DNA from: Sphaerochaeta sp.
Lineage (GTDB): Bacteria; Spirochaetota; Spirochaetia; Sphaerochaetales; Sphaerochaetaceae
Assembly (NCBI GenBank): GCA_022482495.1
Contig: JAKVPA010000003.1
Coordinates: 124,001-188,000 of the forward strand
DNA length: 64,000 bases
Direction: 5' to 3'
The stretch's first letter is position 1; every line of letters starts with the position of its first letter. The notes below the pieces were generated by a model. It searched no databases. It was not told the origin of the DNA and worked only from the letters and a program-made list of their open reading frames with translations. The translations under genes were made by a program, and so were the position numbers. Positions 51,383-53,763 of this stretch are shown in pieces.

Positions 51383-52024
51383 TCACGAAGCCATCGGAGA
51401 GGGCGTTGAATCATCATCATCGTCGTCAAGACGGATGCCGGCCAGGCTCCACAGGAGCCGGACGATGGAAAGCGCCTCGGTGACGGCGACGGAAAGATCC
51501 TCCACCTCCCCATCCCCGCCATCCAGCGCGCGCAGTTGCACGCCGTACTCACCCATCACCGGAACCGGTTGGGAAAAGACCAGATGTTCCGGCATCGTCT
51601 TCACATCGTTGTACTTGCAATGCCGGAACTCAGCCACTCCGTCTTTGTTCAGGGACGCAGAGGCACCGAACAGCCGGCAGACCAGCGGGCGTGCCGGATA
51701 GACGGTGCAGTGATGGGGGTTCTGGGGATTGAACAACGGGCAATGGTCGCTGCCAATGCCATTCTCCAGCCGGTCGATCAACGAGAGGTCCCGCCGCACC
51801 AACAGCAGATAGGCTGCGACCATCCTGGCTTCCAGACTGGTGATGTCCGGCATGAAATGCTCACAGCAGGTGCCGCATCCCTGTCCGCAATGGATCGCGT
51901 AGGCGTCACAGAACGCCAACGTCTCGTCCTCCACCCTGTCGTACAGATCCGACAGATGGGCGAGGCTTTCTCCAAGAAACGTCCCACCCAACAGCCGGAC
52001 GATCTTGTCCCGTTCGTAGTTCAT
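51383..52024 (-). CDS. YkgJ-type cysteine cluster protein
   Basis: 213 residues with the cluster CGQGCGTCCEHF, CPLFNPQNPHHCTVYPARPLVCRLFGASA, and CKYND, the Cys spacing of the zinc- or iron-chelating CxxCxxCC family. Function of the family is unknown. The tail ends with a run of seven Asp (RLDDDDDDS). The start overlaps the corA stop (ATGA), so it is in the corA transcript. Confidence 0.75.
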   Translation of the reverse strand: MNYERDKIVRLLGGTFLGESLAHLSDLYDRVEDETLAFCDAYAIHCGQGCGTCCEHFMPDITSLEARMVAAYLLLVRRDLSLIDRLENGIGSDHCPLFNPQNPHHCTVYPARPLVCRLFGASASLNKDGVAEFRHCKYNDVKTMPEHLVFSQPVPVMGEYGVQLRALDGGDGEVEDLSVAVTEALSIVRLLWSLAGIRLDDDDDDSTPSPMAS

Positions 52025-52999
52025 AGGGATTTGTTCCTTTCCTTCTTTTTCTCTTCCGTTTTCAACATCCGCATGCTTCTCCGGTCACTGAAGATGTACA
52101 GCGCGACGACGACGGAGATGCCACAGGCGACCAACATGAACAGCCACGCCAACGGATAGCCGGTAAACGGCAACTTGACGTTCATGCCGAAGAAGCTGGT
52201 GATGAACGTAGGCAGCATGAAGCTGATCGACACGATGGTCAACCGCTTCATGATGATGTTCATGTTGTTGCTGATGACGCTGGCGAAACAATCCATCGTC
52301 CCGGTGAGGATGTCGGTGTAGATGTTGGCCATCTGGATGGCCTGCTTGTTGTCCGTGATGGTGTCTTCCAGAAAATCCTGCTCAGTCCGGGCCGTCCAGA
52401 TGGAAGAACGTCCCTTTGTTGTTCAGCCGCTCCAGAAGCGCCTCGTTGGTCGTCAGGCTGGTGGTAAGGTACACCAGGGACTTCTGGATCTGCAAAAGCT
52501 GGAGAAGTTCGTAGTTCATGATGGATTTATGCAGCTGGCCTTCCACCTGGTCCTTGCGGCGGTTCAGGTATTTCAGCACCCTGATGTACACCATGGTGGC
52601 ACGTCCCATCAGGGAGATGACGAATCCTTCCATGGTGGATACGGGATAATGGCGGTACCGCTTCTTGGCGAAATCATCCAGCACCACGCTGTCCCCCTGG
52701 CAGATGGTGATGATCATCTCAGGGAACATCACGATGCCCAGCGGGAGGGCCTGCTGGTCCAGCGTATCCTCACTTTCCGACAAGGCGGGAAGCCGGAGGA
52801 TCAGATCAACATACGTGTCTTCCTTCTCAATGCGGCTTTGCTCGTCCTGGTCCATGATGTCCGCAAGGAGATCGCTGTCGATGTTGTATTTCTCTTGGAG
52901 CAACGTGATGTCGTCCCGGTTGACGTCACGGGCGTCAACCCAGGTATACCCTCCCGTTTCTCCGGGACCTTTGGAATAACTTTCATGTATGGTGATCAT
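52021..52999 (-). CDS. corA: CorA-type magnesium/divalent cation transporter, with a +1 frameshift
   Basis: Pentameric Mg2+ channel. The first frame (52999-52382) gives the cytoplasmic domain (ITLLQEKYNIDSDLLADIMD, EDTYVDLILRLP) and the long stalk helix. The second (to 52021) carries ITDNKQAIQMANIYTDILTGTMDCFASVISNNMN, the first membrane helix, selectivity motif FFGMNVKLPF and the second helix. They join at FFHLDG/RTEQDFLED on removing one base of GGG at 52389-52391, giving 978 bases (326 codons). GMN is intact. Preceded by a leader peptide and hairpins; followed by the YkgJ gene. Confidence 0.9.
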
Positions 53000-53000
53000 A

Positions 53001-53050
53001 GGCGCCTCTTGTCAATAAAAAATCAGGCGCGCTCAACTCGGAGAGCGCCG
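53001..53050 (-). promoter_or_regulatory. corA leader attenuator with competing hairpins
   Basis: Minus strand: arm 1 GGCGC (at 53046-53050, extendable as GCGCTC 53043-53048), arm 2 GCGCC (about 53026-53031), a TGA, six T (53017-53022), then arm 3 GGCGCC (53001-53006) just before the corA ATG. Arm 2 can pair with arm 1 (terminator-like) or arm 3 (masking the GAGG ribosome site). Confidence 0.5.
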
Positions 53051-53091
53051 CAGGTACGTTCTGGTAATGGGACGGTGTCTTCCGTATGCAT
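53023..53091 (-). CDS. corA leader peptide (22 residues)
   Basis: ATG at 53091 after a strong GGAGGAGGAG site; the peptide begins MHTEDTVPLPER and ends at the TGA at 53023-53025, inside the hairpin and directly before the T-run. The acidic pair followed by P-L-P resembles enterobacterial MgtL, whose acidic/Pro stretch destabilises ribosomes at low Mg2+ and opens mgtA. That mechanism here is inference from analogy. The promoter is TTGCAA/TAGTAT at 53112-53140. Too short for ordinary gene calling. Confidence 0.5.
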   Translation of the reverse strand: MHTEDTVPLPERTCGALRVERA

Positions 53092-53111
53092 GGCCTCTCC
53101 TCCTCCGGTCG

Positions 53112-53140
53112 ATACTATCATAGCGACGGGGGGATTGCAA
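53112..53140 (-). promoter_or_regulatory. Promoter of the corA transcript
   Basis: Minus-strand TTGCAA (53135-53140), a 17-base spacer and TAGTAT (53112-53117), a few bases before the leader-peptide ribosome site. Confidence 0.55.
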
Positions 53141-53209: not shown

Positions 53210-53763
53210 ATGTTCACCAGAGACGAAGCATTGGGATTACTGAGGAAATACACCAAGAACGAGCATTTGATCTACCACGCATACTGCGTGGAGGCGGTGA
53301 TGCGCCGTTTCGCCACGGAACTGGGGGAGGATCCCGAGTACTGGGGACTGGTCGGTCTGCTCCACGATGTGGACTGGGACCAATTCCCCGAGCAACACTG
53401 CCACAAAGCGCCGGAACTGCTCAGGGAGATCGGTGCGGATGATGACTTCATCCACGCGGTGTGCAGCCATGGCTGGGGAATCTGCTCCGACGTGGAGCCG
53501 ACCAAACCGATGGAAAAAGGTGCTGTACACGGTGGACGAACTGTGCGGCCTGATCTACGCCACGGCATTGATGCGCCCGGAGCACATGGAGGGCATGACA
53601 CCCAAGTCAGGTCAAAAAGAAATGGAACAGCAAGGGATTCGCCGCCGGCGTCAACCGCGATCTGATCGACAAAGGCATCGGAATGATCGGGATGGACAAG
53701 GACAAGGTGATCACCCTTGCCATCGAAGCGCTTACCGGAGTGGAAAAAGAAATAGGCCTTTAA
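53210..53763 (+). CDS. HD-domain hydrolase with two +1 frameshifts
   Basis: HD phosphohydrolase of the small type often annotated as hydrolase or HDIG protein. Frame one: MFTRDEALGLLRKYTKNEHLIYHAYCVEAVM, LVGLLHDVDWDQFPEQH, HAVCSHGWG. Frame two: VLYTVDELCGLIYATALMRPEHM. Frame three: WNSKGFAAGVNRDLIDKG and TLAIEALTGVEKEIGL. Removing one base at AAAAAGG (53514-53520) and one at GG (53610-53611) yields 552 bases (184 codons) reading through. GGAGG precedes ATG 53210. Substrate unknown. Confidence 0.8.

Follow-up and report, generated by a model that had tools for sequence, protein, structure and literature searches.

Does the short open reading frame (ORF) ahead of corA in this spirochaete serve as a leader through which Mg2+ sets the synthesis of a Mg2+ importer? 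Our understanding of translation abortion on acidic and proline-containing leaders comes from E. coli and Salmonella, and to our knowledge ribosomes giving up on such a peptide have so far been described in enteric bacteria; corA is often called constitutive. MgtL destabilizes or aborts ribosomes at low Mg2+ (PMC8934632; PMC11282234), and in MgtQ acidic codons, together with helices 1:2 plus 3:4 versus 2:3, free the mgtB ribosome site (PMC8092293). E. coli corA itself is under the control of the leader corL, for which the signal is intracellular Mg2+; corA falls when corL is well translated, and the RNA has two exclusive folds (PMC11552253). No report of a corA leader switch in spirochaetes was found in searches of an open-access library.

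Organization of the corA leader

The window is a stretch of 64,000 nucleotides (G000:C3:124001-188000) from a 2.25-Mb assembly of 14 contigs. Close relatives of the source genome are Sphaerochaeta and other Sphaerochaetaceae. Coordinates of the leader and of corA are given in Table 1.

Table 1. Features of the corA leader region in the window.
Feature	Position	Strand	Description	Basis
Promoter	53112..53140	-	TTGCAA-17-TAGTAT, extended -10 (TGnTAGTAT)	read from sequence
Promoter hexamer TTGCAA	53140-53135	-	17 nt before TAGTAT	
Promoter hexamer TAGTAT	53117-53112	-		
Leader Shine-Dalgarno region	53092..53106	-	GGAGGAGGAGAGGCC	read from sequence
Arm A	53100-53092	-	GGAGAGGCC	partner of B in the minimum-energy fold
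Leader ORF	53023..53091	-	MHTEDTVPLPERTCGALRVERA, 22 codons and stop; ATG at 53091, TGA ends at 53023	counterparts in family genomes with this corA
Arm B	53040..53049	-	GGCGCTCTCC, within the leader ORF	partner is A or the terminator-like 3' arm
Hairpin	53048-53029	-	GCGCTC-8 nt-GAGCGC, then GCC, stop TGA and six T	
Arm C'	53034-53026	-	GAGCGCGCC	terminator-like hairpin with B, or pairs with the arm of the corA ribosome site
Leader stop	53025-53023	-	TGA	
T run	53022-53017	-	six T	
Arm D	53001..53008	-	GAGGCGCC, contains the corA ribosome site	pairs with C'
corA	52021..52999	-	Mg2+/Co2+ transporter, in two frames; ATG at 52999	PF01544 above cut-off in both pieces

The initial annotation described a promoter and a 22-codon peptide with a strong ribosome site. 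Both are present on the minus strand, and the promoter additionally carries the TG of an extended -10. The Shine-Dalgarno sequence (SD) of the leader ORF reads GGAGGAGGAGAGG, and the ribosome site ahead of the ORF is GGAGGAGGAG. The promoter lies 20 nt from the leader ORF, and the gap between the leader stop and corA is 23 nt. The window promoter was below the strict cut-off of the scan of the region. Of 93 family loci, 70 have an extended -10 motif ahead of the leader, as opposed to 13 of 93 after shuffling; in many loci of the largest group, as in the window, it ends 20–22 nt ahead of the leader ATG.

The leader stop had been placed inside a hairpin followed by six T. The six T are there, and the TGA comes after the stem and before the T run rather than within the stem. 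The minimum-energy fold (-32.4 kcal/mol) consists of A:B (GGAGAGGCC with GGCGCTCTCC) and C':D (GCGCC with GGCGC), and with the terminator-like hairpin B:C' formed instead, the energy is -30.7 kcal/mol. The pairing of the 3' arm GCGCC with the GGCGCC before the corA ATG, suggested from the first reading, is thus part of the most stable structure. That reading had missed a fourth arm, namely the stretch of the leader SD that pairs with the 5' arm of the hairpin.

Leader peptide in Sphaerochaetaceae

This corA was present in 95 of 139 Sphaerochaetaceae genomes. The two other genomes of the source genus (G001 and G002) were without it, and therefore this corA seems to be often lost or replaced in the group; for the same reason the leader comparisons are those of the family, with none within the source genus. 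When the upstream DNA was read, an SD-preceded leader ORF starting with an acidic pair or near-pair was found in all 95 genomes. In most of them Gly/Ser and PLP follow the acidic start (MDEGGSINPLP, MDDGSYPLP, MSTLDDGGSITPLP, MSDDSGSPLP). Some genera keep the acidic pair and have YRP, HPHP, NPLS or none of these in place of PLP; since such members exist, proline may be dispensable in the leader, or the signal may differ. A strict motif, defined as ATG with a strong SD, two acidic residues and then P.P, preceded corA in 75 of the 93 family loci as opposed to 1 of 1860 dinucleotide shuffles, by which a chance ORF was ruled out.

Among 23 distinct MDEGGS..PLP leaders of the largest group, pN/pS was 0.10 for codons 2–11 and 1.13 for codons 12–18. 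These values indicate that the start of the leader is selected as a peptide and the remainder is not. In Sphaerochaeta (g16) the contrast was weaker (0.65 for the motif and 0.74 for the tail). As arm A is formed by codons 2–4 in one group, conservation of the first codons could partly reflect RNA pairing. The frame predicted to be kept in relatives is retained over its first 10–14 residues, with the acidic start family-wide and PLP in most members, but not over the rest of the 22 codons.

Leader in other Spirochaetia

Orthologues across the class were searched for with a self-written Sphaerochaeta-like CorA sequence, not a deposited protein, which was used only for finding orthologues. By our count, 29 of 51 readable corA orthologues from other Spirochaetia families are preceded by a comparable ORF, in most cases behind a clear SD. 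The peptides begin with MDSDPGS, MDTDPGS, MDPDPDS, MPDPDSCS, MPDSDGHSS, MDPDGSCPSP, MSDPDGGGSS, MNDSDGGS, MSDNDG or MTEDDTGPLD, and leader length ranges from 14 to over 50 codons. Among the 51, the leader was not found in the remaining treponemal loci and in a few other families. Four distant loci (L197, L205, L207 and L211), unreadable with the probe, stand outside the class counts. In eight treponemal loci (L167, L169, L171, L172, L175, L179, L215 and L216) the leader crosses the corA start out of frame, with an overlap of about 30–85 nt.

The leader was absent from corA of the phylum's other classes (20 loci, with one doubtful ORF, at L234) and from the second corA copies of the family (16 loci, the starts of which are uncertain). 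Upstream of corA at L178, which belongs to the treponemal group mostly devoid of the leader, what may be a decayed leader was noticed (ATGGATAGTGGCAGT..., MDSGSC...); it has a single acidic residue and lacks a clear SD.

Mutually exclusive helices

In the relatives, arm A is the leader SD or the first codons, arm B lies late in the leader ORF, and arm C just before the corA SD. In each lineage arm B can pair either with A or with C, and A:B and B:C are mutually exclusive. The arm letters differ between lineages (A/B/C): AGGAGGA/TCCTCCT/GGAGGA in Sphaerochaeta, GAAGGC/GCCTTC/GAAGGC in g11 and CGGCTG/CAGCCG(GG)/CCCGGC in part of g2. Per-sequence duplex energies compared with shuffled arms gave weak and inconsistent results, in Sphaerochaeta (g16) alone no better than the shuffles, and a partner-swap test was used instead. 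In 51 non-redundant genomes, A:B had -20.33 kcal/mol with own partners versus -17.11 ± 0.44 with swapped ones, and B:C had -20.07 versus -16.78 ± 0.44 kcal/mol. The observed values were reached in 0 of 20,000 permutations, also when swaps were made within genera; owing to relatedness these permutations are less independent than they appear, and the control pair A:C, which has equal relatedness, showed no partner-swap effect in the same 51 genomes. Both helices use some of the same nucleotides of B in 34 of the 51 genomes versus 11.1 expected. In the other 17 an overlap of 3 or more in B is missing, and in several genomes the arms are weak or unclear.

In one group (n = 27), the consensus fold comprised the core of A:B together with a GGC:GCC hairpin (C:D), with 99.6% of cells paired and the corA SD in the hairpin loop. 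By fold comparison, both the largest group and the window have the corA ribosome site within the C:D hairpin. Pairs flanking the B:C core show double changes (GC 12, AU 11, UA 1). Within genera, RNAalifold recovered A:B with few double changes, because close relatives barely vary. From lineage to lineage, A:B and B:C are rewritten together. Covarying arms, the search for which had been recommended in the initial annotation, are seen both in these double changes and in the loss of energy upon partner swaps of A:B and B:C. Conservation of the frame or of the arms had been set beforehand as the test of the proposal; the proposal passed it, since relatives conserve the acidic start of the frame and have arms that are mutually exclusive and co-varying.

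The pairing choices in the window match those of the relatives, with the six T after the leader stop added. The partner-swap rank of the window sequence was unremarkable (of 51, 22 other B arms were better for A:B and 10 for B:C), and the case for it therefore comes from the family.

Attenuation at an intrinsic terminator, as read from the hairpin and the six T, was not supported. No T run after B:C was found in the leaders of the relatives, and the combination of hairpin and T run occurs only in this genome; with the T run not conserved, an intrinsic terminator was rejected as the general mechanism. The terminator scan gave 5 hits in the region, not clearly more than in shuffles (1.9 on average, sd 1.3). 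Control of corA in the relatives looks translational, the arms acting on the corA ribosome site instead, and a transcriptional component, of either sign, is possible in this genome, given its six T after B:C'. Rfam covariance models of Mg2+ families had no match in the window leader and in eight relatives.

Proposed control of corA

Acidic residues followed by Pro/Gly are the kind of sequence that destabilizes ribosomes at low Mg2+. The leader ORF 53091-53023 (-) would be translated and would control corA, the nascent chain starting with acidic residues and then Pro/Gly (EDTVPLP in the window; DEGGSINPLP, DDGSYPLP and DSDPGS in relatives). With enough Mg2+, the ribosome would complete the leader, A:B would re-form and C:D would pair, keeping corA low. 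At low Mg2+, ribosomes would pause or drop off at the acidic/Pro codons and so keep arm A occupied; B:C would then pair, the corA ribosome site would be free, and the Mg2+ importer would be made. We infer Mg2+ as the signal from the gene controlled and from the peptide, and a Mg2+ response with translation abortion is presumed for the spirochaete leader by a strong analogy. That drop-off switches corA on is likewise a presumed direction; the out-of-frame overlap in treponemes supports it, as only a completed leader would cover the corA start. On balance, the leader probably exerts Mg2+-responsive, ribosome-destabilizing control of corA in the manner of MgtL and MgtQ with a different RNA. We lean, by a little, towards an old sensor spread over the class Spirochaetia, with an origin separate from that of the enteric leaders. 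The nascent leader peptide would set corA expression through ribosome instability and by translational control, in some treponemes by out-of-frame overlap of the leader with the corA start.

With mgtL of mgtA (Salmonella, E. coli) the leader shares a short ORF before a Mg2+ importer, the position of this ORF within alternative hairpins, and an N-terminal acidic/Pro peptide (compare spirochaete MDEGGSTNPLPRRT and MDSDPGS). The phylum and the transporter are different, and the spirochaete leader has no Rfam match; mgtL acts by Rho-dependent termination, whereas the spirochaete arms involve the ribosome site of corA. The interpretation given with the first reading is partly supported. MgtQ, encoded by a Salmonella mgtC-mgtB intergenic ORF, has acidic codons that abort translation, and its 1:2 plus 3:4 versus 2:3 helices, by which the ribosome site of a Mg2+ transporter gene is hidden or freed, follow the logic of A:B plus C:D versus B:C. 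However, mgtQ has eight codons, is located inside an operon and has one Pro acting through the RNA, while the spirochaete ORF is a 5' leader of 14 to 50 codons on corA. Like corL of E. coli and Salmonella, the spirochaete ORF is a leader that precedes corA and has two exclusive RNA folds; corL has few acidic/Pro residues and acts via Rho (PMC11552253), in contrast to the spirochaete leader, an acidic one with a strong SD that gave no evidence of Rho. The spirochaete leader combines MgtL chemistry, MgtQ RNA logic and the target gene of corL.

A classical attenuator could sense some other slowdown of translation, i.e., charged tRNA-Pro, the activity of EF-P or EttA, or ribosome stress in general, and not Mg2+ itself. 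EF-P and EttA also act on PLP and acidic codons in E. coli (PMC11282234), and in the Salmonella mgtCBR leader a Pro-reading ORF stands beside an ATP-reading one (PMC8092293). We nevertheless consider another signal unlikely, as the core kept class-wide is acidic with Gly/Ser/Pro (DSDPGS, DDGS, DPDGS), has no Pro-codon runs and is without Pro in several leaders, and the controlled gene is a Mg2+ importer.

It is quite improbable that the ORF has no sensing role, either as a translated leader holding the corA mRNA open or as a housekeeping attenuator, of Rho type or linked to a terminator, whose set point is fixed. The exclusive helices by themselves would yield a translation-coupled switch, and the terminator-like hairpin of the window agrees with such a device; fixed-set-point coupling, however, requires no specific amino acids, and yet the first residues have a pN/pS of 0.10 (23 sequences), and acidic leaders are found again in distant families, where the nucleotides differ. 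A small functional protein, e.g., one binding CorA, would explain an ORF kept beside corA over much of the class, but was rejected as very improbable on the free drift past residue 10–14 (pN/pS 1.13), and lengths of 14 to over 50 codons and a 3' end that is the corA start in another frame in the eight treponemal loci also speak against it.

If Mg2+ control by the leader is true, sensing of Mg2+ via ribosome stability is widespread and arose more than once, and the locus shows how corA may be regulated in spirochaetes. About 120 natural variants are available for learning which residues and RNA arms matter.

State of corA and the adjoining gene

A one-base shift near 52384 splits corA of the window; in tblastn, the protein of a Sphaerochaeta relative changes frame between 52385 and 52383. 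In the relatives read, corA is intact, unlike the window copy. The shift is an assembly error or marks a recent pseudogene; a sequencing error is likely, because the neighbouring divergent gene also looks broken. This gene (53210-53762, plus strand), which adjoins the leader, is HD-domain hydrolase-like, judged by the HD motif. Its apparent frame shifts beside A runs, one close to 53508 and one close to 53610, suggest homopolymer errors in the assembly.
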